Positions 2,651 to 61,575 of a stretch of 64,000 bases of DNA are shown here, one piece after another (the first letter of the stretch is position 1; each line of letters starts with the position of its first letter). Origin of the DNA: Enterobacteriaceae bacterium 89 (lineage in GTDB: Bacteria > Pseudomonadota > Gammaproteobacteria > Enterobacterales > Enterobacteriaceae); NCBI GenBank assembly GCA_014156375.1, contig RQJH01000001.1:124001-188000 (forward strand), in the 5' to 3' direction. Under the pieces are notes generated by a model, which worked only from the letters and a program-made list of their open reading frames with translations, was not told the origin of the DNA and searched no databases. A program made the position numbers and the translations under genes.

Positions 2651-4134
2651 GCGACCACTCCCAGCAGACGAGCTGCGGTCACGCGGTCTGAGTAATCAAG
2701 ACGGCGGGTGCCAACAATCTGGTAATCTTCATGGCCTTTGCCTGCCAGCAGAACCACGTCATTCTCTTTGGCCTGCATGATGGCAGCAGTCACGGCTTCA
2801 GCACGACCTTCCATCACTTTTGCATGACCGGCATCCAGCATGCCCGCCAGAATATCGTTGATGATCGCGCGCGGTTCTTCGGTTCGTGGGTTGTCATCGG
2901 TCACGACGGCCACATCAGCGAACTCTTCCGCAATCGCGCCCATCAGCGGACGTTTGCCCTTGTCGCGATCGCCGCCGCAGCCAAACACGCACCACAGTTT
3001 GCCGGTGCAGTGCAGGCGTGCAGCCTGCAGCGCTTTCTCCAGCGCGTCCGGTGTATGGGCATAATCGACGACAACCGTCGGTTTGCCCGGTGCGGTAAAC
3101 ACTTCCATACGCCCACAAACCGGCTGCAGACGGGGAGCGGCTTTGAGTAAATCAGCCAGCGGGTAACCCAGCGCCAGCAGCGTCGCCAGCGCCAGCAGCA
3201 GATTGCTGACGTTGAACGCGCCCATCAGACGGCTTTCGATTTCACCGTTGCCCCAGATGGAATCAAACTGGATGGTCGCGCCGCTGTCGTGGTATTTCAC
3301 GGCAGTGGCCTTCAGCCAGCGCCCATGACAGTTCGGGTTGATATGATCTTCCATCGACACCGCGACGGCATCTGGCAGTTTCGCCAGCCAGCGACGACCG
3401 ACTTCGTCATCGGCATTGATGATCGCCTGACCAAAATCGTGGGTGGAGTACAGCATCCACTTCGCCGCTTCGTAGTGCTCCATATCACCGTGATAATCGA
3501 GATGGTCACGGCTCAGGTTGGTAAACACGGAAGCCTGGAACTTAAGCGCGGCTACGCGGTGCTGCACCAGACCGTGGGAAGAAACTTCCATCGCCGCGAG
3601 CGTGGCGCCCTGCTCAGCCAGTCCGGACAGCACGTGCTGAACGTCAACCGCCGAGCCGGTCGTATTTTCGGTAGGAACTACTTTGCCCAGCAGGCCGTTA
3701 CCGACGGTCCCCATCACTGCGCTGGTTTCACCCAGCAGCTGCGCCCATTGCGCCAGCAGTTGGGTGGTGGTGGTTTTACCGTTAGTGCCGGTCACGCCGA
3801 CCAGACGTAATTGTTCAGAAGGCTGTTGGTAGAAACGCCCAGCCAGCGCCGAAAGACGCTCATTCAGTTGGCTGAGGTAGACAACCGGCACGCCGTGCAT
3901 TTCACGGATTTCACCGTCATCGGCCTCATCTTTTGCCTCAGCAATAATGGCAGCTACACCTTGCGCTATCGCCTGCGGGATATATCGACGCCCGTCCGCC
4001 TGATGACCTGAGACAGCCACAAAGAGATCGCCCGACGCCGCTACACGGCTGTCGAGTGTCATCTCTCGCAGTGCCCGCTCCGGTGCGCCTGGCACCCATG
4101 GAGCAAGAAGGTCGCGCAAATTACGATCTGCCAC
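2647..4134 (-). CDS. murE: UDP-N-acetylmuramoyl-tripeptide synthetase (meso-diaminopimelate adding)
   Basis: MurE adds meso-diaminopimelate to UDP-MurNAc-L-Ala-D-Glu in the cytoplasm. The 495-residue product has the Mur ligase three-domain layout. The ATP-binding loop reads [13 protein letters not shown] near residue 115. The DNPRTEEP motif near residue 415 is the recognised signature of meso-DAP (rather than lysine) specificity, as expected for a Gram-negative wall. Its start lies inside the last codons of ftsI (14-base overlap), an arrangement also found in E. coli, and its stop overlaps murF by 4 bases. Confidence 0.98.
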
Positions 4135-5887
4135 CTGTTCCCTCGCCTTGATTAGTCACAAATTCACTTTTTTCGCCGGTTGACAGCGCATCAGGCTCGA
4201 TGTTCATGGTGCGCAGAACGCCGCCCATGATGGCACCAAACACCGGTGCGGAAACGGCGCCGCCGTAGTACTTACCTGCCTGCGGATCGTTGATCACCAC
4301 CACCAGCGCAAAGCGCGGCTGGCTGGCTGGGGCAACGCCTGCGGTGTAGGCAATATATTTATTGATGTACTTACCGTCCGGACCCACTTTTTTCGCCGTA
4401 CCGGTTTTAATCGCGATGCGATAGCCTTTGATAGCCGCCTTCACGCCGCCGCCGCCGGGCAGCGCCACGCTTTCCATCATATGGACGACGGTACGGACGA
4501 TAGGCTCAGGGAAGATACGCTCGCCCGGAACCGGAGGGTCAACTTTGGTGATCGACAGCGGGCGATAGACCCCATAGCTGCCAATCGTTGCGTAGACTCG
4601 CGCTAACTGTAACGGCGTTACCATTAGCCCGTAGCCGAAAGAGAAGGTGGCCCTCTCTATGTCAGACCACCGTTGTTTTTGAGGATATAAGCCACTGCGT
4701 TCCCCGACCAACCCCAAATTGGTCGCTTTTCCCAGTCCAAAACGTGAGTAAGTATCTACTAACGCTGAGGAGGGCATCGCTAACGCCAGTTTGGAAACCC
4801 CGACGTTACTCGACTTCTGTAATACCCCGGTGAGGGTCAATTCGCTGTAACGCGCCACGTCTTTGATTTCGTGGCCGTTAATTCGGTATGGGATGGTGTT
4901 CAGCACCGTGCTTTCATTGACGATCCCGCGCTGTAATGCGGTCATCACCACCATCGGCTTGACGGTAGAGCCTGGCTCAAAGACGTCGGTGATTGCGCGG
5001 TTACGCATCGCGTCTTTCGCCGTGCCGGTAAAGTTGTTCGGGTTGTAAGACGGGCTGTTGGCCATCGCCAGCACTTCTCCGGTGCTGACATCTACCAATA
5101 CCGCACTGCCTGATTCGGCTTTGTTAAACGCCACGGCGTTGTTGAGTTCGCGGTAGACCAGCGCCTGCAGACGTTCATCGATACTCAGCGCCAGGTTGTG
5201 TGCGGCCTGACTGTCCGTAGAGGAGATGTCTTCGATAACGCGGCCGTAGCGGTCTTTACGCACGATACGTTCGCCCGGCTGGCCCGTAAGCCACTTATCA
5301 AAGCTTTTCTCAACGCCTTCAATGCCCTGGCTGTCGACGTTGGTAAACCCGATGAGGTGAGCAGTCACTTCACCAGAAGGATAGTAACGGCGAGATTCTT
5401 CACGCAGATGGATACCCGGCAGCTTGAGCTTTTTGATGTAGTCGGCCATGTCAGGGTTCACCTGGCGGGCCAGATAGATAAAGCGCATGCGCGGGTTGCT
5501 GTTGATACGCGTAGCCAGCTGATCGAGTGGCATATTCAGGGCATCGGCCAGCGCCTTCCAGCGGTTGTCGATGCTGACGCCACCGGCATCGTGCAGCTCT
5601 TTCGGGTCAGCCCAAATCGCTTTCACCGGCACGCTCACGGCCAATGGGCGACCTGAACGGTCAGTGATCATGCCGCGTGAAGTTGAAACTTCCTGTACGC
5701 GCAGGGAGCGCATGTCGCCCTGACGCACCAGCATGTCAGGGTTGATAATCTGTAGCCAGGCCACACGGCCCAGCAGGAAAGCCATCGCCAGCAAAATGCA
5801 CCCGCAAAGCAACGCAAAACGCCAACTGATAAAGTTGGCCTGTTCTTCCTGACGTTTTGGTTTAAGCGTCTTTGCCGCTGCTTTCAT
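4121..5887 (-). CDS. ftsI: Peptidoglycan D,D-transpeptidase FtsI (penicillin-binding protein 3)
   Basis: FtsI is the septum-specific class B penicillin-binding protein that crosslinks peptidoglycan at the division site together with FtsW. The 588-residue product has a short cytoplasmic tail, one membrane segment at about residues 20-45, a pedestal domain and a C-terminal transpeptidase domain. Active-site motifs are present: STVKP (catalytic serine, near residue 307), SSN (near 360) and KTG (near 495). It follows ftsL by 15 bases and overlaps murE. No insertion next to the active site was noticed of the kind that gives beta-lactam-insensitive PBP3 variants. Confidence 0.98.
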
Positions 5888-5902
5888 GCGTTGCGATAAT
5901 CC

Positions 5903-6268
5903 TTATTTCTGAACAACAATATTTTCCTGTGAAGGATCAACATGCTGCATTTGCAGCTTTTCCGTTGCGATCCGTTCAACCCGGCTGTGATCGCCGAGCG
6001 CGTTTTCTTCAAGAATCAGGTTGCGCCACTCGATATCCAGCGCATCACGCTCCACAACCAGCTGTTCACGCTGAGCCGTTAGCAGACGCGTATGGTGCGC
6101 CGTGGTAACAACCGTGACGGCCGAAACAATAATGCAAATGAACAGGCAGAGTGGCAGCTTCCCAAACCGCAAAAGATCGTCGCCGATCACGCCAGGCAAG
6201 GCATGGCGCTCGTTGCTTCCTAACGACCCTTTTACTTTGCTTAGGGCTTCTGACACTCTGCTGATCAT
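5903..6268 (-). CDS. ftsL: Cell division protein FtsL
   Basis: FtsL is a small bitopic inner membrane protein that forms the FtsQLB complex and helps activate FtsWI at the septum. The 121-residue product has a cytoplasmic N-terminal tail, one hydrophobic segment at about residues 35-57 ([20 protein letters not shown]), and a periplasmic part with leucine-spaced coiled-coil character (residues about 60-100). Length and almost the whole sequence match E. coli FtsL as recalled. Its ATG overlaps the end of rsmH by 4 bases, so translation is probably coupled. Confidence 0.97.
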
Positions 6269-7206
6269 GCGTTCGTCCTCTCTGCGATACGCAGTACTGA
6301 ACTACGAGCGCGTGGATTCTCTGCCACTTCTTGTTCGCCCGGCATCAACTTGCCTAGTGCTCGCAGATGACGGCCACCCAGTTTCCTGAGTTGCTCTTCG
6401 GTCATCGGTAACCCTGCCGGAACCTGCGGACCACGGCTTTGTTCGCGCATAAAGCGTTTCACAATGCGGTCTTCCAGCGAGTGGAAACTGATGATCGAGA
6501 GCCGCCCTCCCGGGGCCAGCACGTCGAGCGAGCTTTTTAGCGCCTGCTCTATCTCCTCAAGTTCACTGTTCACCCAGATGCGCACCGCCTGGAAAGTACG
6601 GGTCGCAGGATGTTTGTGTTTATCTTTCACCGGCATGGCCGCCGCGATCACTTCCGCCAGCTCTTTGGTGCGGGTCATCGGTTCAAGGCGGTTGCGCTCA
6701 ACGATGGCGCGGGCAATGCGCTTGCCAAAACGCTCCTCGCCAAAGGTTTTAATCACCCAGGCAATATCGGCTTCATCAGCAGTTTGCAGCCATTCCGAGG
6801 CGGACTGACCGCGAGTCGGGTCCATCCGCATATCCAGCGGCCCGTCACGCATGAAGGAGAAGCCGCGCTCAGCGTCGTCGAGCTGCGGTGAAGAGACGCC
6901 AAGATCGAGCAGAATGCCGTCGATCTTGCCGGTCAGATTGCGCTCCGCTACGTAATCAGCGAGCGCAGAAAAGGGGCCATGCACGATGGAAAAGCGAGGG
7001 TCATTAATGGTGTTTGCCACTGCAATCGCCTGTGGATCGCGATCGATAGCCAGCAGTTGCCCGTTCTCCCCCAGCTGCGAGAGGATCAGACGCGAGTGGC
7101 CACCACGACCAAAGGTACCATCAATGTAGATACCGTCGGGACGAATGTTCAGGCCGTTAACGGCCTCGTCCAGCAGTACCGTAGTATGTTTAAAATTTTC
7201 CATCAT
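6265..7206 (-). CDS. rsmH: 16S rRNA m4C1402 methyltransferase RsmH
   Basis: RsmH (formerly MraW) N4-methylates cytidine 1402 of 16S rRNA in the ribosomal P site, using S-adenosylmethionine. The 313-residue product starts [16 protein letters not shown] and carries the SAM-binding motif [10 protein letters not shown] near residue 30, followed by [10 protein letters not shown]. The [11 protein letters not shown] motif near residue 100 is typical of the family. It starts 2 bases after the mraZ stop region and overlaps ftsL, so it is the second gene of the cluster. Confidence 0.98.
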
Positions 7207-7208
7207 CT

Positions 7209-7667
7209 TTATAAGGACAAATCCTGCAACCGCTCCGACAGCTCTCCGGAGGCGGTCTGCTCAGCGTCGATATCTTCCTTGACCCGTTGATACCAGGTCG
7301 TTTCATCCCACAGTTCAAACTTGTTGAACTGTCCAACCAGCATCACTTCTTTGGTCAGTCCGGCGTGTTGCCGTAAAACCGGCGCAATCAGCAAACGACC
7401 GGCGTTGTCCATTTGACATTCGCTGGCATGTCCCAGTAACAGACGCTGCACGCGGCGTTCTGCGGGGTTCATGCTCGACAGTCGTGACAATTTTTGCTCG
7501 ATGATTTCCCATTCGGGCAGAGGGTAAAGCAGCAGGCATGGGTGATGGATGTCAATGGTGCAAACCAATTGACCAGCAGCGTTCTCAAGCAGCATATCCC
7601 GATATCGGGTGGGCACCGCTAAGCGCCCTTTGCTGTCGAGATTGACTAACGTAGCTCCACGGAACAT
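7209..7667 (-). CDS. mraZ: Transcriptional regulator MraZ
   Basis: MraZ is a ring-forming DNA-binding protein of the AbrB/SpoVT superfamily that represses its own promoter at the head of the division and cell wall cluster. The 152-residue product has the tandem fold halves, each with a DxxGR signature: [11 protein letters not shown] near residue 10 and [12 protein letters not shown] near residue 88. An in-frame upstream start 12 codons earlier exists, but the chosen ATG is preceded by a clear GTGAGG ribosome site and gives the E. coli length and N-terminus ([10 protein letters not shown]). Three binding boxes lie just upstream. Confidence 0.97.
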
Positions 7668-7685
7668 GCCAGCCTCACCCCTTTT

Positions 7686-7710
7686 CTCCACTTTCACCCA
7701 CAAATTCCCA
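7686..7710 (-). promoter_or_regulatory. MraZ operator (three direct TGGG-type boxes)
   Basis: On the minus strand, between the promoter and the mraZ start, three boxes read TGGGA (7706-7710), TGGGT (7696-7700) and TGGAG (7686-7690). They are spaced exactly 10 bp apart, start to start. Established work on E. coli MraZ describes TGGG(N) direct repeats with 5-nt spacers as its autoregulatory operator, and this matches. The third box is degenerate (GGAG instead of GGGN). Confidence 0.85.
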
Positions 7711-7719
7711 CATAAAGGA

Positions 7720-7748
7720 GTTTACGGAGCGGAGGAAAAGCTTGTCAA
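7720..7748 (-). promoter_or_regulatory. mraZ promoter
   Basis: The minus strand shows TTGACA (7743-7748), a 17-bp spacer, and GTAAAC (7720-7725) as a -10-like hexamer. The segment is nearly identical to the E. coli PmraZ region as recalled. It drives the whole mraZ-rsmH-ftsL-ftsI-mur cluster, and the MraZ boxes lie just downstream of it. Confidence 0.75.
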
Positions 7749-8273
7749 GCCAGCACTAGGTCCATATGAGTCCAAAAATCCCGAACCAGGTACCTATATT
7801 TGCCCTGATTAATTTCTGTCCAGCGAACGAGGCAAAATAACGTTATGAATACTGGCAAGAAAAAAACCAACAGGTTCGTAACGATTTTGGTCAACTTAAT
7901 TTCACAAAGGTGAAAATATAAAGTGTCAGTTTGCGACGTGCGCGGCATTTTAGGACATTCTTCCTCGCGTTAATAGCCCTTACAGGAACTGTTTCTGCCT
8001 GCCGCTGCGCCTGAAAGCGTGAGGAAATGTGTGAGGACGAATGAAGTGGCGGGGAATTCGGCCAAATGCTACGAGAATGTAACAAAACAATACAATCAGG
8101 ACGAATCTTTACTTTTTATTAACCTAAATTAATAGACTTAAGCCCATTTAAAAGCGGGATTAATTGCGAATCGATGAATTTTAAGGAATTGTCTGAATAA
8201 GAAAACTAAGGAAAATTAAGAGCGATTCTGGAAAGGCCATTGCCTAATGCAGCAGCCTTTCCAATTAAGACTT
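7749..8273. other. Intergenic region between cra and the mraZ promoter
   Basis: About 525 bp without a convincing gene, AT-rich especially at 8090-8220. Short open frames here lack good ribosome sites and family resemblance. Just after the cra stop there is a hairpin on the minus strand with arms GGAAAGGC (8230-8237) and GCCTTTCC (8255-8262) and a 17-base loop. It has no continuous U-tract right behind it, so it may be a weak cra terminator or a processing or stability hairpin. Nothing else was recognised. Confidence 0.6.
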
Positions 8274-9278
8274 TTACCGACGGCTCAGACTGCCGCGACG
8301 ATAAAGATTTCGACGAATGCGGCTCAGACCTGGTTTTGGCTTGCGTGGCTCATCCAGGCTCGCCAGCACAATCTCCAGCACTCGTTCTGCAACATCGCGA
8401 TGGCGCTGGGCGACAGCCAGAACCGGACACTGCAGGAAATCGAGCAGTTCATGATCGCCGAAGGTGGCAATCGCCAGCTCAGAAGGCAGTTTACCCTCAC
8501 GGCGCAGCGTGACGTCCATAACGCCCTGAAGCAGCGCAAAGGAGGTGGTAAACAGCGCCTGAGGCATAGGATGCGTTTCAAGCCAGGTTTCAAACAGCTG
8601 TGCCGCCGCCTCACGCTCGTAGCTGTTGGCATACAGGAAGTGAACGTCGCGAGGATCGTCTTTCCAGGCAGTACGGAACCCTTGCTCACGCAAGAAGCTT
8701 ACGGAGAGTTCAGGAAGCGCGCCTAAATAGAGGACCGTCTCCGCAGGGAATTTTCTTAGCTCCGCCGCCAGCGCCTCGGCATCTTCCTGATCGGCGCCGA
8801 CTACGCTGGTAAAATGTTCCCGATCCAGTGCGCGATCGAGGGCGACGATCGGGAAAGGATCGTTGGCCCAGCGCTGATAGAAAGGATGTTCCGGCGGTAA
8901 CGAAGTGGAAACGATGATCGCGTCGACCTGACGCTGCAACAAATGTTCGATGCAGCGCATTTCGTTATCAGGCTGATCTTCCGAGCAGGCTATCAACAGC
9001 TGATAACCGCGCTGGCGCGCCTGACGTTCAAGATAGTTAGCAATACGGGTGTAACTGGTGTTTTCAAGATCGGGGATCACCAGACCAATTGAGCGCGTAC
9101 GTCCAGCACGCAGACCAGCAGCGACGGCGTTAGGGTGGTAGTTATGCTCACGCACAACCGCCATCACTTTTTCGACCGTTTTATCACTTACGCGGTACTG
9201 TTTGGCTTTCCCGTTAATCACATAACTTGCCGTGGTGCGAGACACGCCGGCAAGCCTGGCGATTTCATCCAGTTTCAC
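8274..9278 (-). CDS. cra: Catabolite repressor/activator Cra (FruR)
   Basis: Cra is a LacI/GalR-family regulator that senses fructose-1-phosphate (and, with weaker evidence, fructose-1,6-bisphosphate) and controls the direction of carbon flow between glycolysis and gluconeogenesis. The 334-residue product has the E. coli length. The N-terminal helix-turn-helix reads [20 protein letters not shown], with the hinge helix near residues 50-58, followed by a periplasmic-binding-protein-like sensor domain. It is transcribed alone, upstream of mraZ and downstream of ilvIH, all on the minus strand. Confidence 0.98.
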
Positions 9279-9404
9279 AATTGCCCCTTGCTTAAAATGT
9301 ACGATCCATAACCATTGTTAAATCATGGAATAAATTCCATAACATCTAAGCGCAGATTGCCGACAGCGGCAACCGCTTTTCTTTCCACTTCCCACTGAAT
9401 TCGC

Positions 9405-9436
9405 AAAAAAAAGCCCGGCAGAGAACACCGGGCTAC
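9405..9436 (-). terminator. Rho-independent terminator of ilvIH
   Basis: On the minus strand, the stem AGCCCGG / CCGGGCT (9428-9434 pairing with 9412-9418) is followed by eight U residues. It lies 22 bases after the ilvH stop codon and before the cra promoter region. Confidence 0.9.
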
Positions 9437-9458
9437 GTATTTCGGATGAAACTCAGGT

Positions 9459-9950
9459 TTAACGCATGATCTTGTCGCCGCGGGATAACCCGACCACGCC
9501 CGAGCGCGCGACTTCAACAATGCGAGCAACATCGCGCAGGGAAGCCAGAAACGCATCCAGTTTATCGCTGGTGCCAGCCAGCTGGACGGTATAAATAGAA
9601 GGCGTCACGTCGATGATCTGTCCGCGGAAAATCTCGGTATTGCGCTTAACCTCTTCGCGGCCATAGCCGCTGGCCTGCACTTTCACCAGCATGATTTCGC
9701 GCTCAACGTGCGCGCCCTGCCCCAGTTCACTGACGCGCAGCACGTCGACCAGCTTATGGAGCTGCTTCTCAATCTGCTCAATAACCTTTTCGTCACCCAC
9801 GGTCTGAATCGTCATACGCGACAGAGTGGGATCGTCGGTGGGTGCCACGGTCAGACTCTCGATGTTATAACCACGCTGAGAGAAAAGCCCAATCACGCGA
9901 GACAGAGCCCCTGATTCGTTTTCCAGCAGTACTGATAATATCCGGCGCAT
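9459..9950 (-). CDS. ilvH: Acetolactate synthase III, regulatory subunit
   Basis: IlvH is the small regulatory subunit of acetohydroxyacid synthase III, which gives valine feedback inhibition and full activity to IlvI in branched-chain amino acid synthesis. The 163-residue product begins [20 protein letters not shown], an ACT domain, with a second ACT-like half after about residue 80. An in-frame start 10 codons upstream lies inside ilvI; the chosen ATG gives the E. coli N-terminus and begins 2 bases past the ilvI stop. A strong terminator follows. Confidence 0.97.
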
Positions 9951-54606: not shown

Positions 54607-55614
54607 TCAGCCAAATCCGCAGGAGCTCCGCACCACCAGCGCCGGGGGCAGAATGATCCGTTTCGGCGGTTCGTCATTGCCCTGAATGCGGCTGTAAAGC
54701 AGCTCTCCGGCTTTGCGACCAATCTCTTTCGCCGCCACAGAAACCGTCGTCAGCGCAGGCTGCACCAGCGCAGCTTCGGTAATATCATCAAAACCAATTA
54801 GCGCAAAATCCCGCCCCGGTTCACGCCCGGCTTTACGCAGCGCGAGCATCACGCCTAATGCCACAATATCCTGATAGCACACCGCTGCGGTAATTTCCGG
54901 ATACTGGCTTAACAGCGCCTCCGCCACCCGTGCGCCATCGCTTTGGCTGGCCTGCGAGGTGACAATCCACTCTGGTTTCGGTGAAACGCCATGTTCCAGC
55001 AGTTTGCTGGTGAATCCGCCAATACGCTGTGCCCGCGTGCCCGAGTTTTGGCTGCCGCCGATAAACGCAATATTGCGGTGCCCCATTTTCAGCAGATGGG
55101 CGGTCGCCATTTGCGTGCCGAGAAAGTTATCGGTGCCGACAAAATCAAAATCCGGATCGTCCAGCGGACGCACCACCATAATCGCCGGAATATTGCGCCG
55201 CTTCAGGCCATCAAAAAAGGCCTGCGGCGTCCCGCGTGCCGCGCACAGCACCATGCCGCAGGCGCTGTTACGCATCAGCGAATCGACAAACTTCTGCTGG
55301 CGCTCCTCCGATTCCTCACTGTTTGCCAGAAACAGCAGCATCTCGTGCCGTTCCATTTCATGGCTCAGACCCGCCGTCATCTCACCGTAAAACGGGTTGG
55401 TGATGTCGTGCAGCAGCAGACCCACCTGGTTGCTGCTGCGGTTGCGTAAGTTGGCGGCCGTCTGGTTGTAGACGTAGCCTGAATCATCCAGTGCTTTCAG
55501 CACTCTTTCGCGAGTGGCCTGTGAAATTCGTCCGCGATTGCGCAGCACCATCGATACCGTCGCGGTGGATACGCCAGCCTTTTCGGCTACCTGTGCCAGT
55601 GTCACTGTGGTCAT
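54607..55614 (-). CDS. LacI/GalR-family regulator of the PTS-isomerase block
   Basis: The 335-residue product has a LacI-type DNA-binding domain (VTLAQVAEKAGVSTATVSMV near residue 3, hinge helix near 50-57) and a sugar-binding core with FIGGSQNSGTRAQRIGGF near residue 190. The overall pattern (VSMVLRNRGRIS, DITNPFYGEMTAGLS, GHRNIAFIGG, AAVCYQDIVALG) is closest to the MalI subgroup. The ATG at 55614 follows an AGGAGA ribosome site; a GTG 6 codons upstream would place that site inside the gene. It faces the sugar operon, and palindromes on both sides suggest it is a repressor of the block and of itself. The ligand is unknown. Confidence 0.9.
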   Translation of the reverse strand: MTTVTLAQVAEKAGVSTATVSMVLRNRGRISQATRERVLKALDDSGYVYNQTAANLRNRSSNQVGLLLHDITNPFYGEMTAGLSHEMERHEMLLFLANSEESEERQQKFVDSLMRNSACGMVLCAARGTPQAFFDGLKRRNIPAIMVVRPLDDPDFDFVGTDNFLGTQMATAHLLKMGHRNIAFIGGSQNSGTRAQRIGGFTSKLLEHGVSPKPEWIVTSQASQSDGARVAEALLSQYPEITAAVCYQDIVALGVMLALRKAGREPGRDFALIGFDDITEAALVQPALTTVSVAAKEIGRKAGELLYSRIQGNDEPPKRIILPPALVVRSSCGFG

Positions 55615-55638
55615 GATCTCTCCTCTGCTCACCTCACA

Positions 55639-55654
55639 GATTAATCGAATAACC
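55639..55654. promoter_or_regulatory. Putative regulator operator 1
   Basis: GATTAATCGAATAACC contains TTAATCGAATAA at 55641-55652, one mismatch from the palindrome TTAATCGATTAA. It lies 25-40 bp upstream of the regulator gene, probably over its own promoter, which suggests autoregulation. Confidence 0.7.
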
Positions 55655-55673
55655 TGATTTTTGCATTTCTCCC

Positions 55674-55689
55674 TGAGAGATGCTTCACA
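55674..55689. promoter_or_regulatory. Putative CRP site
   Basis: TGAGAGATGCTTCACA fits TGTGA-N6-TCACA with one mismatch. It is centred at 55681.5. That is about 62 bp upstream of a plausible start near 55743 for the sugar operon (class I spacing) and about 41 bp from a plausible start for the regulator gene. Function is inferred. Confidence 0.55.
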
Positions 55690-55728
55690 ACTTCGGCCAT
55701 AAACCTGCCCCTGTTGCTGAATCTGTCA

Positions 55729-55745
55729 GGTTAATCTCATTAACC
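55729..55745. promoter_or_regulatory. Putative regulator operator 2
   Basis: GGTTAATCTCATTAACC is a perfect 7-bp inverted repeat with a 3-base centre. It has the same half-site (GGTTAAT) as the other palindromes but is one base longer in the middle. It would cover a possible -10 (TAATCT, 55732-55737) of the sugar operon promoter. Confidence 0.7.
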
Positions 55746-55760
55746 ACGCTGCTCTCTGTC

Positions 55761-55776
55761 GGTTAATCGATTAATC
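55761..55776. promoter_or_regulatory. Putative regulator operator 3
   Basis: GGTTAATCGATTAATC contains the perfect 12-bp palindrome TTAATCGATTAA (55763-55774), the same core as the distant site at 61620-61631. It ends 25 bp before the first structural gene, probably in the transcribed leader. Confidence 0.8.
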
Positions 55777-55801
55777 TTTAATGACCGATAAGGAGAGAAT
55801 C

Positions 55802-57550
55802 ATGACATCCACAACCTACGATAAAACGCCTGAGGTGGTCGTTCAGGGCTACGAAAACCAGGCCTGGCAGAGCTGGCAGGAGATCATCACCGCGATCCGA
55901 TCGCGGCTCGAAAATCATAAAAAGACCGTGCTGGCGATAGACTGCTACCCTGGCGTTCGTCTGCGTGAGCTGGAGCAGCAGCTTTTACCTGCGCTAAACG
56001 CCCGCTGCACGATCAACGTCGAGCAGGCACGACAGAATGAAGAAGAGCTGCACAATCTGCTTGCCAGAAACCTAACCGACGACCGCGTTTTCGGGGTGCT
56101 CTCCTGCCACCAGCTGACGGAATTTTTCGATGGTCAGCGGCTTGCGGCGTTACGCCAACAGATTGAAGCGGTGACCGACGGGCTGATCGTCGTGTATGGC
56201 CCTGGCGCAACACTGGTTCACGACGGCGACATTCTGGTATATGCCGACATGCCGCGCTGGGAGATCCAACAGCGGATGCGCAGCGGCGAGCTCGGCAACT
56301 GGGGCGCTGAAAATCAGCATGAAGATATGCTCCGCCGCTATAAACGCGCCTTCTTTATTGAGTGGCGCGTATTTGACCGCCATAAAACGCCGTTGCTCAA
56401 ACGGGCAGACTTCATTCTGGATACCACTGAGGCGGGTTCTCCGGTGATGGTCAGCGGCGACGCTCTGCGCGCCGGACTTCAGCAAACCACCGCTCAACCG
56501 TTCCGCGTCGTCCCGTTTTTCGATCCCGGCGTCTGGGGCGGGCAATGGATGAAACAGCAATTCGATCTCGATCCCTCGAAGCCAAACTACGCCTGGTGTT
56601 TTGACTGCGTGCCCGAGGAAAACAGCCTGCTGCTGAAATTTGGCAACGTGCGGATCGAGATCCCCTCTATAGACCTGGTACTGCTGCACCCACAGGAGCT
56701 GCTGGGGGAAAAAGTGCATGCCCGCTTTGGCGCGGAATTTCCCATCCGCTTTGACTTCCTCGACACTATCGGCGGCCAGAACCTCAGTTTTCAGGTTCAC
56801 CCGCTGACGGAGTACATCCAGCAGCAGTTCGGCATGCACTACACCCAGGATGAGAGCTACTACATTCTGGAGGCAGAACCCGGCGCGGTGGTGTACCTCG
56901 GCACGAAAACCGGTACACAGCCTCATGAGATGCTGACCGATCTTCGTCAGGCTGCACGCGGAGAAAAAGCGTTTGATGATCAGCGTTTTGTTAACCAGAT
57001 CCCTGCCAGCAAACACGATCACTTCCTGATCCCGGCAGGTACGGTGCACTGCTCCGGTTCTGGCACCATGGTGCTGGAAATCAGCGCCACGCCTTATATC
57101 TTCACCTTCAAGCTGTGGGACTGGGGACGGCTGGGAATGGATGGTCTGCCGCGCCCGGTGCATCTGGATCACGGCGAGCAGGTCATTGACTGGCAGCGCG
57201 ATACCCAATGGGTACAACAGCATCTGGTGAACTGCACCGAGCCCGTCGCTGAAGGCGAAGGCTGGCGCGAAGAGCGCACCGGGCTGCACGAACGCGAGTT
57301 TATAGAAACTCGTCGCCACTGGTTCTCCGCGCCGGTGACTCACCATACAAACGGGGGCGTTAACGTACTGAACCTGGTTGAAGGGGAAGAGGCGCTTGTC
57401 GACAGCCCAAGCGGCGCGTTTGAACCCTTCGTGGTCCACTACGCCGAGACCTTCATCATTCCTGCTGCCGTCGGGGAATATCGCATTTCCCCCTGGGGTA
57501 AAGGTGCCAACCGGCAGCTCGCCACCATTAAAGCCTGGGTCAGGGGGTAA
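55802..57550 (+). CDS. Phosphomannose-isomerase-like protein with degenerate kinase-like N-terminus
   Basis: The 582-residue product has two parts. The N-terminal part (about 1-230) looks like a nucleoside/uridine-kinase-type P-loop domain whose Walker A has decayed: VLAIDCYPGVRLREL at 43-57 lacks the GK(S/T). The C-terminal part resembles class I mannose-6-phosphate isomerase, with likely zinc ligands Gln331 and His333 (LSFQVHP), Glu351 (DESYYIL) and His416 (PAGTVHCSG). The start at 55802 has the AAGGAG site 7 bases upstream; an ATG at 55781 lies before that site. It is first in the operon with the PTS genes, so it probably acts on the imported sugar phosphate. Substrate unknown. Confidence 0.85.
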   Translation: MTSTTYDKTPEVVVQGYENQAWQSWQEIITAIRSRLENHKKTVLAIDCYPGVRLRELEQQLLPALNARCTINVEQARQNEEELHNLLARNLTDDRVFGVLSCHQLTEFFDGQRLAALRQQIEAVTDGLIVVYGPGATLVHDGDILVYADMPRWEIQQRMRSGELGNWGAENQHEDMLRRYKRAFFIEWRVFDRHKTPLLKRADFILDTTEAGSPVMVSGDALRAGLQQTTAQPFRVVPFFDPGVWGGQWMKQQFDLDPSKPNYAWCFDCVPEENSLLLKFGNVRIEIPSIDLVLLHPQELLGEKVHARFGAEFPIRFDFLDTIGGQNLSFQVHPLTEYIQQQFGMHYTQDESYYILEAEPGAVVYLGTKTGTQPHEMLTDLRQAARGEKAFDDQRFVNQIPASKHDHFLIPAGTVHCSGSGTMVLEISATPYIFTFKLWDWGRLGMDGLPRPVHLDHGEQVIDWQRDTQWVQQHLVNCTEPVAEGEGWREERTGLHEREFIETRRHWFSAPVTHHTNGGVNVLNLVEGEEALVDSPSGAFEPFVVHYAETFIIPAAVGEYRISPWGKGANRQLATIKAWVRG

Positions 57551-57552
57551 AG

Positions 57553-57981
57553 ATGATTAACGTACTTGTCGCCTCTCATGGCCCATTCGCCGATGCGCTG
57601 CTCGCCAGCGCGACGATGGTTTACGGTGAACTGCCTTATGTTCACAGCGTGACGTTAACTGAGCATCGGGGTATTGAGGGATTCAAACAGGATTTTGCCC
57701 ACACGCTGGCTAAAGCGAGCGAAAACACCGATGGCGTGTTGGTGCTATGCGATATGCAAAGCGGCACGCCGTGGAATGTCGCCTGTCAGTACGCTTTTTC
57801 GGCGAGCACCACTCCGCCGGTCGCCGTGCTGGCCGGAATGAATCTGCCCATGCTGCTGCAAAGCGATGAAATAACCGGCATGCAGGACGTCAACGCCGCC
57901 GCCGCGCGGCTTCTCAGCCTCACACAACCCACGCTGGTTATCGCCGCCCCGGCAGCCACCACGCAATCTGATGATTTTTAA
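57553..57981 (+). CDS. PTS system, mannose-family EIIA component
   Basis: The 142-residue protein is the cytoplasmic phosphocarrier that accepts phosphate from HPr. It matches the EIIA-Man fold. The likely phosphorylated histidine is His9 in VASHGPFADALL, and the VLCDMQSGTPWNVA stretch lies near residue 60. It is a separate polypeptide, unlike E. coli ManX where A and B are fused. It starts 2 bases after the isomerase-like gene, and an AAGGAG site for EIIB lies across its end. Confidence 0.93.
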   Translation: MINVLVASHGPFADALLASATMVYGELPYVHSVTLTEHRGIEGFKQDFAHTLAKASENTDGVLVLCDMQSGTPWNVACQYAFSASTTPPVAVLAGMNLPMLLQSDEITGMQDVNAAAARLLSLTQPTLVIAAPAATTQSDDF

Positions 57982-57991
57982 GGAGCCTGCT

Positions 57992-58486
57992 ATGAGCCTT
58001 TCTTTTGTTCGAATAGATGACCGCGTGATCCACGGGCAGCTCATCACTCGCTGGGCCAAAGAGCTGCCCTGCGACGGCATTGTCGCCATTGACGATGCCG
58101 TTGCGGCCGACCCTCTCCTCTCATCGGTGATGAAAGGCGCGGTGTCCGATACCAAAGTCTGGCTGTTCGATACCGCCACGGCCATCGAGAAACTGCCAAA
58201 AGTGATCGCCAGTGAGAAACGCTACTTTGTGATCGGTAAATCTCCCGTCACGCTGCAGCGCATCGAACAGGCCGGTATCAGCCTGCAAAACAGCAACGGA
58301 AAAATCAACGTCGGCCCCATGAGCGCCCGCGCCAATACCACCACCATTGGCCCTAATCAGTCGGTTAACGCCGAAGAGATTGCCGCTTTTGCCTGGCTTT
58401 GCGCCCACGGTCATCACGTTGAATTTCGTCTGGTGCCGGACGCCAGCTGTTACAGCTGGCAGGACGCCGAGCTTAAGCTGAAATAA
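57992..58486 (+). CDS. PTS system, mannose/fructose/sorbose-family EIIB component
   Basis: The 164-residue protein passes phosphate from EIIA to the incoming sugar. The phosphorylation-site histidine is His14 in the family signature RIDDRVIHGQL. The MSARANTTTIGPNQSVNAEE stretch near residue 108 is also typical. The start at 57992 follows an AAGGAG ribosome site. A longer frame beginning at 57971 starts inside the EIIA gene and was rejected. It is 10 bases from EIIC. Confidence 0.93.
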   Translation: MSLSFVRIDDRVIHGQLITRWAKELPCDGIVAIDDAVAADPLLSSVMKGAVSDTKVWLFDTATAIEKLPKVIASEKRYFVIGKSPVTLQRIEQAGISLQNSNGKINVGPMSARANTTTIGPNQSVNAEEIAAFAWLCAHGHHVEFRLVPDASCYSWQDAELKLK

Positions 58487-58496
58487 GGAGACGACG

Positions 58497-59294
58497 ATGA
58501 TTTTCGAAGCCACACTGATTGGCCTGCTCTGCTACCTGGGCGCACTCAGCAGCCCCTGGCTGTTTGGCCTGACCGGCGGCTGGTATCTCATTACCCGCCC
58601 GCTGGTTTCCGGGATGCTGGTTGGCCTGATCCTCGGCGATGTGAAAACCGGGATTATGATTGGCGTTGCCGTACAGGCGGTGTATATCGCGATGGTCACG
58701 CCCGGCGGCTCGATGCCTGCCGATCTGAACTTCGTTGCTTATCCCGCGATCGCGCTGGGGATCCTCTCCGGTAAAGGTCCTGAGGTTGCCGTCGCGCTGG
58801 CGGCCACCATAGGGATCGCCGGGACGATTCTGTTCAATACCATGATGGTGCTGAACTCCTTCTGGAATCACCGGGCCGACACGGCGCTGGAGCGAGGAGA
58901 CGAGCGCGGAATTTATCTCAACAGCGCCATCTGGCCGCAGGCCACCAACTTTGTGCTGCGCTTTGTGCCAACGTTTATCGCCGTCTATTTCGGCGCGCAG
59001 TACATCAGCGGCTTTATGGACAGCCTGCCCAAAGTGGTGCTGACCACCATGAGCGTGCTGGGCGGCATTCTGCCCGCCGTCGGTATCGCTATCCTGCTCA
59101 AGCAAATCATTAAAAACTACACCATGCTGATCTACTTCCTCGTGGGCTTTATCTGCATCGTTTTCCTGAAGCTGAACATGGTGGCACTGGTGATCGTCGG
59201 GGCGCTGCTGGCGCTGATCCACTACAACTACAAGCCAGAAAACGCGAAGCCTGCGACGGCTAAACCGCTGGCAGACGATGAGGACGAATTCTGA
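58497..59294 (+). CDS. PTS system, mannose/sorbose-family EIIC component
   Basis: The 265-residue inner membrane protein is the sorbose-type IIC subunit that forms the sugar channel with EIID. It has about seven to eight hydrophobic segments, the family stretch GVAVQAVYIAMVTPGGSMPAD near residue 55-75, and an acidic C-terminal tail ending DDEDEF. Its TGA overlaps the EIID ATG by one base, so the two membrane subunits are coupled in translation. Confidence 0.93.
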   Translation: MIFEATLIGLLCYLGALSSPWLFGLTGGWYLITRPLVSGMLVGLILGDVKTGIMIGVAVQAVYIAMVTPGGSMPADLNFVAYPAIALGILSGKGPEVAVALAATIGIAGTILFNTMMVLNSFWNHRADTALERGDERGIYLNSAIWPQATNFVLRFVPTFIAVYFGAQYISGFMDSLPKVVLTTMSVLGGILPAVGIAILLKQIIKNYTMLIYFLVGFICIVFLKLNMVALVIVGALLALIHYNYKPENAKPATAKPLADDEDEF

Positions 59295-60109
59295 TGGAAG
59301 AGCGCAAGCTGACCCGTAAAGATCTACGCCGCTGCTGGCGCGCGTGGATGATGCACAATCTGTCGTCGATGAGCTTCGAACGTCTGGAATCGTTCGGCTT
59401 CTGTCTGAGCATGCTTCCCGTTGCGCGTAAGCTGTACCCGGATGCCGCTCAGCGCACCGAAATGCTGCGCCGCCACGCTTCCTTCTACAACACCGAGCCA
59501 CAGATTGGCGCTATCGTCAACGGGATGGCGCTGGGGCTGGAGGAGAAAAAAGCCAACGGCGAGCCTATCGACGGTGAGACGATCAACACCCTGAAAGTGG
59601 GCCTGATGGGGCCGATCGCCGGGATCGGCGATTCGATGATCCCCGGCATGCTGATCCCAATCCTGCTCAGTATCGGGATGGCGCTGGCCGCCGGGGGAAA
59701 CATTCTCGGGCCGCTGTTTTACACCGTCGCCTGGCTGGCAATCATTCTTCCGGGATCGTGGTTCCTGTTTTTAAAAGGCTACCAGATGGGTTCCGGCTCG
59801 GTGGAAATGCTGGTCAGCAGCAAATCAACCCGCCTGCGCGAAGCGCTGTCGCTGCTGGGCGTTTTTGTAATGGGCGGCGTGGCGGCGAGCTATGTGAAGC
59901 TTGGCACCGGACTGGAATTCATCACCAAAGACGGCGTGAATATCCACGTACAGCAGATGCTGGACGGCATATTCCCGCAGTTGCTGCCTTTGGTAGTGGT
60001 GCTCGGCACCTGGTATCTGATGGCTAAACGCGGTGTCTCGCCGGTGAAAGCGATGATCCTGTTGCTGATCGTCGCCGCAGTTGGAGTGGGTACGGGTTTA
60101 TTTGCCTGA
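59294..60109 (+). CDS. PTS system, mannose-family EIID component
   Basis: The 271-residue protein is the second membrane subunit unique to mannose-class PTS systems. It has a long cytoplasmic N-terminal part with the family signature FYNTEPQIGAIVNGMALGLEE near residue 65. The motif LMGPIAGIGDSMIPGM lies near residue 108, followed by hydrophobic segments up to the C-terminus. It closes the operon; a REP element and a strong terminator follow. Confidence 0.93.
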   Translation: MEERKLTRKDLRRCWRAWMMHNLSSMSFERLESFGFCLSMLPVARKLYPDAAQRTEMLRRHASFYNTEPQIGAIVNGMALGLEEKKANGEPIDGETINTLKVGLMGPIAGIGDSMIPGMLIPILLSIGMALAAGGNILGPLFYTVAWLAIILPGSWFLFLKGYQMGSGSVEMLVSSKSTRLREALSLLGVFVMGGVAASYVKLGTGLEFITKDGVNIHVQQMLDGIFPQLLPLVVVLGTWYLMAKRGVSPVKAMILLLIVAAVGVGTGLFA

Positions 60110-60189
60110 TGGCGCTTCGCTTATCAGACCTACAAAATCAACACATTATGTTGAACGTGTAGGTCCGGTAAGCCTGCGCCACCGGGCAT
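60104..60189. repeat. REP/BIME element after the PTS operon
   Basis: GCCTGATGGCGCTTCGCTTATC is followed about 35 bp later by the opposite-facing unit TAGGTCCGGTAAGCCTGCGC with CACCGGGCA. This is a standard enterobacterial REP pair. Its presence beside the accessory block suggests the block has been in this chromosome long enough to pick up host repeats, or was inserted next to one. Confidence 0.9.
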
Positions 60190-60212
60190 TTTGATTCTTT
60201 GTCAGCAATCTG

Positions 60213-60238
60213 AACCGGGGCGAACACCCCGGTTTTTT
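60213..60238. terminator. Terminator between the convergent PTS and isomerase operons
   Basis: The stem AACCGGGG / CCCCGGTT (60213-60220 and 60227-60234) has a 6-base loop and a T-run at 60233-60238. It serves the plus-strand PTS operon. Its T-run overlaps the TAA stop codon (60237-60239) of the facing isomerase gene. Confidence 0.85.
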
Positions 60239-61019
60239 ATGGATGAAAGTTCTGCCACAGTGAAGCGGTTTTATCCGGCCGCGAGATAAACTGAAAGCGG
60301 GCGGGATCGTCGATAAACTGTTGGTAAACCGGCTCATCTGTGATGCCAAACTCCCGGTACTGTCGCGGAGTAATAACCTGCAATCGCCCCGGTGCGTAGT
60401 GGCTGTTATGCTGCCAGACGATCTGGTCATCTTGCAGCAGCGGATACCATGCCAGCCCTTTATGCGCCCGCACGGCTTCATACTCGAAGCCATATTCCCG
60501 ATCGCACCACGCGCCGAAGGTCAGCGGCTCATCGGGATTAGCAGAGATCGTCGCATGGCCCCAGCCCGGCGGCACCAGCACCTTATCGCCAGGTCCAGCC
60601 ACCACCGCAAAACAGCGCCCCGGATCGTCCGCTACAAATTCCTGCATGTAGATAATCGCCTCACCCTGCCAGATTTCATAGAGCTCCGGCGGTGACCAGC
60701 CGCTGTGCTGGCTGATGCGATGAACGTGACCCTGGCTACGAATGGGCTCATCACCCAATCGCCCTGCGGCATAGGTCACCACGCCGAAAAGCAGCATGCG
60801 CTTTTTGAGCTCAGCCAGATCCTGTAGGCGCGCCACGTCCATCACAATGGCATAAACCTCTTCCGGCCCGTCGCATTTCGGATCGCGCAGCGAGGAGCGG
60901 ATCTGATCGAGCCGGCGGATCTCCGGCATCGGGCCAATCACCTCTTCACCGTAGGTAAAACCGAGCGGATGGCGATGCGCCATTATTTGCAGCCCGTAAG
61001 GTAAGGTGCTCTCAGCCAT
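60237..61019 (-). CDS. Cupin-type phosphoglucose-isomerase-like protein (larger paralogue)
   Basis: The 260-residue product belongs by pattern to the archaeal-type (cupin) phosphoglucose isomerases. The metal-ligand set is complete: His98 and His100 (SQGHVH), Glu112 (PELYEIWQGEA) and His155 (PPGWGHATIS). Compared with its neighbour it has about 70 extra residues, split between the N-terminus and the C-terminus (from about residue 185). Its ATG overlaps the stop of the upstream paralogue by 8 bases, so both should be made together. It probably isomerises a sugar phosphate delivered by the PTS; the actual substrate is not shown. Confidence 0.85.
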   Translation of the reverse strand: MAESTLPYGLQIMAHRHPLGFTYGEEVIGPMPEIRRLDQIRSSLRDPKCDGPEEVYAIVMDVARLQDLAELKKRMLLFGVVTYAAGRLGDEPIRSQGHVHRISQHSGWSPPELYEIWQGEAIIYMQEFVADDPGRCFAVVAGPGDKVLVPPGWGHATISANPDEPLTFGAWCDREYGFEYEAVRAHKGLAWYPLLQDDQIVWQHNSHYAPGRLQVITPRQYREFGITDEPVYQQFIDDPARFQFISRPDKTASLWQNFHP

Positions 61020-61575
61020 TCTGCACCTCTTTCGCCATTAGCCTGAGGTTGCCCTTCGTGACTCGCTGAGCAAAACCACCAGCCAGCGCGGCATAGTCAT
61101 GCCCGGCAACACTTGGCCAGACCGCGAGTGCTGAGAGGACATCTGTTCCAGTGTTGATCAGACGATGCGCGATATATCCGGCAATGCGGTGAACTGAACC
61201 CGGAAATACTTGCTCCAGGCGAGTGCCTCCCTGCTCATTCTGCAACAAAAGTAGCCCTTCCCCGCGCAGGCCGAAATAGACTTCCCCCTGTTCACGTCGC
61301 GCGTGGAAATGCCCGCGAGTCATGAAGTATTCCTCGCCCAGGCAGCCCGGATTCAGGTGAGTGACCCCGGTAAAAAGCTCACCTTCACCTGCAGGGGTAT
61401 CAAACATTTCAACGGAATAGACGACAAGCGAGGGATCGCCGTGACGAAAAGCGGCTTCGTCAGCGAAAACTCCGGCCAGATCGCCAAGCGTAGTGATTTT
61501 ACGGATCAACGGCGCACCGGACAGCGCACCGCTAGCCCAGGCCACCTGAGGTGGCAGAGACAGTGTTGGTTTCAT
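61012..61575 (-). CDS. Archaeal-type cupin phosphoglucose isomerase homologue
   Basis: The 187-residue product resembles Pyrococcus phosphoglucose isomerase along its whole length. His89 and His91 (TRGHFH), Glu98 (GEVYFGLRGEG) and His137 (GYIAHRLINTG) line up with the known metal ligands 88, 90, 97 and 136 of that enzyme as recalled, and WPSVAGHDY near the C-terminus is also shared. The start at 61575 has a GGAGAG ribosome site. A much longer upstream frame (to 61887) runs across the promoter into rihC and was rejected. It heads a two-gene operon with an operator in its promoter. Confidence 0.87.
   Translation of the reverse strand: MKPTLSLPPQVAWASGALSGAPLIRKITTLGDLAGVFADEAAFRHGDPSLVVYSVEMFDTPAGEGELFTGVTHLNPGCLGEEYFMTRGHFHARREQGEVYFGLRGEGLLLLQNEQGGTRLEQVFPGSVHRIAGYIAHRLINTGTDVLSALAVWPSVAGHDYAALAGGFAQRVTKGNLRLMAKEVQNG

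Follow-up and report, generated by a model that had tools for sequence, protein, structure and literature searches.

A probable LacI-controlled two-operon regulon with a proposed route for mannose import and isomerization in Enterobacteriaceae bacterium 89

Which sugar is served by a set of eight genes that lies between dapB and rihC in one enterobacterium, where Escherichia coli K-12 (gene order ispH-rihC-dapB-carA) has no annotated gene separating rihC from dapB? The set is found in a 64,000-nucleotide stretch of Enterobacteriaceae bacterium 89 (assembly GCA_014156375.1, contig RQJH01000001.1, positions 124,001 to 188,000; hereafter “the window”). It comprises genes for a LacI-type repressor, a protein resembling phosphomannose isomerase (PMI), the EIIA, EIIB, EIIC and EIID subunits of a mannose-family phosphotransferase system (PTS), and two cupin proteins of the phosphoglucose isomerase (PGI) kind, gpi1 and gpi2. 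Having computed gene content, folds, sites, co-occurrence and mannosidase context, we propose that the block is a regulon of two operons under LacI-type control, serving mannose or a mannose-like sugar (in relatives, mannosides as well) and including an import–isomerase route. We put the probability of this reading at roughly 0.58.

Each of the eight genes is an open frame close to where it was first placed, and Pfam assigns none of the eight products to a kinase, aldolase, SIS or hydrolase family. On these points, as on the adjacency of dapB and rihC in K-12, we agree with a first-pass annotation of this DNA, which had described a self-contained import and isomerase block; the gene content supports that description. 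It had also called the cupin genes convergent, which holds for the pair as it faces the plus-strand PTS operon and not for the two relative to each other: gpi2 comes first and gpi1 follows in tandem on the minus strand, with an 8 bp overlap (Table 1). The repressor gene is likewise on the minus strand. The PMI-like gene and the genes for EIIA, EIIB, EIIC and EIID succeed one another on the plus strand at a spacing of a few bases. The PMI-like frame measures 589 aa from its first ATG and 582 aa from the start at 55802 behind GGAGAGAATC; the IIB start is probably 57992.

The repressor has the Pfam LacI helix-turn-helix and sugar-binding domains, and candidate operators for it lie in the block. 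Perfect copies of the palindrome TTAATCGATTAA occur only at 55763 and 61620 in the 4,723,985-base genome, one before each operon, and the reversed pattern, used as a control, has no perfect copy at all. With a one-mismatch copy at 55641, the window holds three matches, a number reached in none of 100 shuffles of the window. Because the perfect palindrome is found just twice, once per operon, the block looks like one regulon, probably of two operons under a single LacI-type repressor. One-mismatch sites elsewhere in the genome are as frequent as in the reversed-pattern control (10 versus 10), so candidate further members were dropped and we claim none. One such site (G000 C3:1478662, L212) has an open frame of 479 aa or more on one side and a ROK-type regulator-like frame on the other, possibly by chance. 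A regulon with two sites is a simple genetic handle.

The arrangement recurs in relatives. We examined 80 named loci (L numbers), which are best matches and are biased to close relatives of the query. A repressor homolog with at least 40% identity is present in 59 of them, and 57 of these 59 carry an operator-like site with no more than one mismatch, no further than 350 bp from the repressor start; in 43 it is perfect, and L089 and L090 are the two without. The one-mismatch site near the repressor start is kept at similar spacing in many relatives. Upstream of gpi2, an operator-like site lies within 150 bp in 40 of the 48 loci that have both gpi2 and the repressor (32 perfect). In five of the remaining eight (L086, L087, L089, L090 and L094, from Photobacterium and Vibrio), gpi2 stands behind EIID on the PTS strand; the other three are L084, L097 and L099.

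The four PTS subunits occur together in the block, and all their listed matches score too low for the NCBIfam Aga, Man and sorbose-type models (e.g., AgaW, 150.2 versus a cut-off of 300), which bears out the earlier argument against a sorbose system. Across the 80 loci, the mannose-family PTS (counted as present when at least three of the four subunits were found) occurs in 58, gpi1 in 50, gpi2 in 56, a glycoside hydrolase family 38 (GH38) or GH63-type gene in 15 and a ROK kinase gene in 10. The PTS loci are nested: eight have no cupin gene, seven have gpi2 only, and 43 have both cupin genes (three of these with GH38 in addition). That 43 of the 80 loci combine PTS, gpi1 and gpi2 with the PMI-like gene is far beyond chance.

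Within Enterobacterales, the block has a patchy distribution. Matches to the PMI-like gene occur in 22 of 295 genomes, eight of them full-length and 14 confined to ordinary PMI-type stretches, and gpi1 is found at 80% identity or more in six. Six of the eight genomes with the full-length gene, our own included, have the complete block with its gene order unchanged; the other two (L037 and L038) have a GH38 gene beside the PMI-like gene and no PTS or gpi match there. The PTS and isomerase genes, which the first-pass annotation had treated as a unit, thus do share neighbourhoods in other genomes. Two records titled Chryseobacterium (L044) and Escherichia coli (L061) carry an enterobacterial dapB-ispH stretch with the block; for 3,900 bases of L061, a set of 20,395 E. 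coli records gave no near match, and both titles look wrong.

What points to mannose is the company that the PMI-like gene keeps. It lies beside GH38 in 14 of the 80 loci and beside a GH63-type, mannosylglycerate-hydrolase-like gene in one, representatives having been checked by Pfam. In a plasmid collection, some records of which look like chromosomes or pieces of them, 77 records match the PMI-like protein. We opened 12 of these neighbourhoods, and eight have GH92, GH76, GH38 or GH125 nearby: by annotation in Parabacteroides, two Hymenobacter, Spirosoma, Streptomyces and Flammeovirga, and by Pfam in Deinococcus AB2017081 and Arthrobacter. The four without are from Listeria, Deinococcus AJ005, Hymenobacter DG25B and Photobacterium (an unannotated record). 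Alpha-mannosidase or alpha-mannanase genes and ROK kinases often adjoin PMI-like relatives, in several phyla.

Four Enterobacteriaceae loci have a GH38 gene and a fructose-type PTS, relatives of the MngA/MngB system, under the same operator. In L045 and L068, where the PTS looks broken, these genes lie between the operator and the PMI-like gene; in L065 and L073, they lie beyond gpi2 with an operator copy of their own. L073, from Superficieibacter electus, also has, at 3344-9746, a run in which a second PMI-like copy is in tandem with the fructose-type PTS and GH38, adjoining the first block and with the same operator.

Across loci, the PTS and the pair of a ROK kinase and an MFS or ABC importer substitute for one another, the pair often being found in gpi loci without a PTS. 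In a tree of 19 ROK kinases, the six from gpi loci fall on one side of a 100/100 split together with kinases of a Spirosoma GH76/GH92, a Hymenobacter PMI and a GH38 locus. The other 10, largely from mannosidase loci too, fall on the opposite side, where one long branch was flagged. Given this grouping and the mutual replacement, the gpi-locus kinase, and with it the PTS, most likely acts on mannose.

The chemistry of the isomerases favours the same sugar. Aldose-ketose isomerases acting at C1/C2 link fructose-6-phosphate only to glucose-6-phosphate and mannose-6-phosphate; other hexose phosphates also require an epimerase, or a kinase plus an aldolase. We propose that the sugar would free the repressor from the TTAATCGATTAA sites before both operons. 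The PTS, judging from its family, would import a hexose and phosphorylate it at C6, giving mannose-6-phosphate, which the PMI-like protein would convert to fructose-6-phosphate, probably with altered proton-transfer residues. A cupin PGI, gpi2, would link fructose-6-phosphate and glucose-6-phosphate, and gpi1 may be a divergent paralogue acting on a related hexose-6-phosphate in the same route, which is the weakest step. Substrate, direction and catalysis are, throughout, what we infer.

The PMI-like protein has a two-domain type I PMI fold. PMC4718643 names Gln, His, Glu and His as the metal ligands of type I PMIs and describes a catalytic role for a Lys. The putative ligands Q331, H333, E351 and H416 are kept in all 35 aligned members of the PMI-like family. 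No NCBIfam model matches the protein and its Pfam score is under the cut-off, and searches at sequence level with the N-terminal ~228 aa gave no PDB match and no Pfam family above cut-off. An impression from the sequence that this part resembles uridine kinase was rejected, as a profile comparison with the genome's own Udk-like protein gave a probability of 0.4%. Members of the family were seen in enterobacteria, vibrios, Listeria, clostridia, spirochaetes, Deinococcus and Bacteroidota and share about 53-61% identity from one phylum to another. Most annotated records that we opened call it “class I mannose-6-phosphate isomerase”; it is widespread and seems to be uncharacterised. If the protein is a PMI, the catalytic Lys would be dispensable; if it is not, annotations are wrong in many mannan and mannoside loci. 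In Flammeovirga (L191, 8011-10671), it is fused to a ROK kinase in an 886-aa protein beside GH92. In Deinococcus sp. AJ005 (L182, 8950-12808), the PMI-like gene has genes for an AGE-family 2-epimerase and a ROK kinase after it, and the locus may encode C2 epimerisation of a sugar.

Of the two cupin proteins, gpi2 has the GHxH, E and H metal set and nearly full-length similarity to cupin PGIs (PF06560), matching the structure 1j3p with an E value of 3.6e-32 over residues 25-183. The fold and metal motifs of cupin PGIs are found in gpi1 as well. A Tyr and a His after the cupin barrel are important substrate-contact positions of these enzymes; where the archaeal enzymes align them, gpi1 has C172 and F178 (8 of 8), so that the contact residues are not those expected.

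Several side observations concern gpi1. A relative with 26% identity is found on a Salmonella plasmid (L201, 6279-10014) and in E. coli KE47 (L203, 5956-9543), in a run of a ptsG-like EIIBC gene, the GPI-like gene, hxlB (6-phospho-3-hexuloisomerase) and hxlA (3-hexulose-6-phosphate synthase), with an SgrR-type regulator beside it. This run might be a sugar route that moves the carbonyl from C1 to C3, and a limited literature search found no paper on it. In 82 of 398 Bacillota genomes, the matches to gpi1 are distant only (best E 5.7e-42 to 9.4e-8); several that we opened, e.g., L175 and L179, lie among housekeeping genes, and these relatives are perhaps the house PGI there. A metagenome-assembled Spirochaetes genome (L108, 1227-5308) has, in a gpi/ROK locus, a pair of related neighbouring proteins (684 and 676 aa); neither matches Pfam, and the 676-aa protein also has no PDB match.

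A number of observations weigh against the mannose proposal. ManA, Pgi and four further mannose-family EIIDs over cut-off are already encoded in the genome, so the enzymes of the block would be redundant. Position 349, two residues before the metal-ligand Glu and the place of the catalytic Lys, is Gln in 35 of 35 members, and the positions of ManA K86, D270 and R274 are Asp (34/35), Tyr (32/35) and Lys (35/35), so that the reaction of the PMI-like protein is uncertain. A ManA-like gene with the usual Lys adjoins the PMI-like gene in L103 and L117. The role of gpi1, the weakest step, leaves a gap. A Parabacteroides locus has the order gpi2-ROK-gpi1-MFS; a GH2 and a cellulase-like protein occur with it, and the PMI-like gene is missing from the 24.8 kb viewed, which refutes the idea that gpi1 always accompanies the PMI-like gene. 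Moreover, gpi and GH38 occur together in only 4 of 80 loci, the window block has no mannosidase, and GH1 (L048, L056, L073 and L113) and GH13 (L103) genes near gpi loci could release glucose.

Two candidate links were set aside and are not used as evidence. The GH1 proteins of L048, L056 and L113 were considered as phospho-beta-mannosidases; the two scanned, L056 and L113, score below the listed NCBIfam cut-offs. Phospho-GH1 enzymes usually carry a C-terminal Lys, which is not evident in these proteins. For the GH2 proteins of L121, L119 and L200, Mannosidase_ig is above cut-off in L121 only.

There are other explanations. One, prompted by the missing Lys, is a 2-epimerase: with the residue for proton transfer between C2 and C1 gone, the PMI-like family would re-protonate C2 and interconvert mannose-6-phosphate and glucose-6-phosphate, from which the cupin PGIs would then make fructose-6-phosphate. 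This would account for the pairing of PGI-type cupins with a PMI-type protein and for the ManA-like gene that can stand beside it, and we nevertheless rate it as quite improbable. An unlikely explanation, to our mind, is general hexose intake, in which the PTS would carry glucose as well as mannose, with the three enzymes serving as additional PMI and PGI isozymes for higher flux. The cPGI-type ligands of gpi2 fit this, as do the GH1 and GH13 neighbours and the nesting in PTS loci, where the cupins appear dispensable (PMI-like gene alone, with gpi2, or with gpi2 and gpi1); a dedicated repressor with only two perfect sites and the recurring mannosidase or mannanase neighbours of the PMI-like family argue against it.

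The first-pass annotation favoured a rare hexose. Its 6-phosphate would have to be isomerised in several steps, and a C2-to-C3 carbonyl shift among these would amount to a hidden epimerase. Three non-housekeeping isomerases in one regulon despite ManA and Pgi, the unusual active-site residues of the PMI-like protein and gpi1, and the 26% gpi1 relative next to a PTS gene and a 6-phospho-3-hexuloisomerase gene all speak for such a sugar. However, the same Gln motif is present in PMI-like relatives from alpha-mannan loci (L184, L185, L186 and L188), the eight loci with PTS and PMI-like gene and no cupin disfavour three obligatory steps, and a family search of the eight proteins found no epimerase, aldolase or second kinase. 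As C1/C2 isomerases reach fructose-6-phosphate only from the two phosphates named above, and as the GH38, GH63-type, GH92, GH76 and GH125 neighbours and ROK kinases point to mannose, we consider a rare hexose improbable and depart from the annotation here. Finally, gpi1 or gpi2 could be hexose-6-phosphate mutarotases that give the isomerase its anomer when a retaining mannosidase or the PTS supplies the other. Some PMI-like loci without gpi do have aldose-1-epimerase-type genes (L088, L092, L093 and L037); L108 and L090 carry both kinds, gpi2 keeps its cPGI motifs, and we know of no mutarotase precedent among cupin PGIs, which makes this very improbable.

The remaining features of the block concern its ends and signals. 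Nested inverted repeats with arms of 25 and 13 nt at 60103-60188, between EIID and gpi1, precede the likely terminator; they resemble a repetitive extragenic palindrome/bacterial interspersed mosaic element (REP/BIME). A pattern scan did not have the repeat at 60213..60240 among its matches; it gave two promoter-like sites against a shuffle mean of 3.9, i.e., no excess.

Table 1. Positions of genes and sites of the dapB–rihC block in the window
Feature	Position	Strand	Basis or remark
LacI-family repressor, MalI subfamily (NCBIfam)	54607..55614	-	NF007449 MalI 315.8 bits vs cut-off 310
Operator-like site TTAATCGAATAA, one mismatch, near repressor promoter	55641..55652		sequence match
Operator-like perfect palindrome TTAATCGATTAA, upstream of PMI-like/PTS operon	55763..55774		1 of 2 perfect genome copies
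PMI-like protein, N-terminal part of ~228 aa and complete type I PMI fold	55802..57550	+	
Mannose-family PTS EIIA	57553..57981	+	PF03610 64.5 bits, cut-off 21.4; SHGPFAD motif with His
Mannose-family PTS EIIB	57992..58486	+	PF03830 122.6 bits, cut-off 27; DDRVIHGQ motif
Mannose-family PTS EIIC	58497..59294	+	PF03609 224.8 bits, cut-off 26.3
Mannose-family PTS EIID	59294..60109	+	PF03613 293.5 bits, cut-off 25
Inverted repeat AACCGGGG/CCCCGGTT then T run, likely terminator between convergent operons	60213..60240		
gpi1, divergent cupin PGI-like protein, 260 aa	60237..61019	-	
gpi2, 187-aa cupin PGI similar to those of archaea	61012..61575	-	
Operator-like perfect palindrome TTAATCGATTAA, 45 bp upstream of gpi2 start codon	61620..61631		second perfect genome copy

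An operon with this gene set was not found in any paper in open-licence PubMed Central, searched with a few term sets that left RegPrecise entries and subscription papers outside; the accessible part of PMC4052901 has nothing on this regulon. The parts are of known kinds; it is the PMI-like family and the regulon that set the block apart. Compared with type I PMI (ManA, EC 5.3.1.8), the PMI-like protein has the extra N-terminal ~228 aa, Gln for the catalytic Lys throughout the 35 members, and mostly Asp, Tyr and Lys at the K86, D270 and R274 positions. Compared with the cupin PGIs of Pyrococcus and Thermococcus (PF06560), gpi1 shows greater length, an insertion that separates the first ligands, and Cys and Phe where the aligned enzymes have Tyr and His. 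The mannosylglycerate system MngA/MngB of E. coli combines a fructose-type EIIABC with a GH38 hydrolase. Neither gene is in the window block, whereas L045, L065, L068 and L073 have relatives of both under the operator that they share with the block, with scores far below the MngA/MngB equivalog cut-offs (426.8 versus 763; 641.1 versus 1138). With alpha-mannan loci (GH76/GH92/GH38/GH125 plus a ROK kinase), the window block has the PMI-like family in common; unlike them, it has no hydrolase, and a PTS takes the place of kinase and importer.

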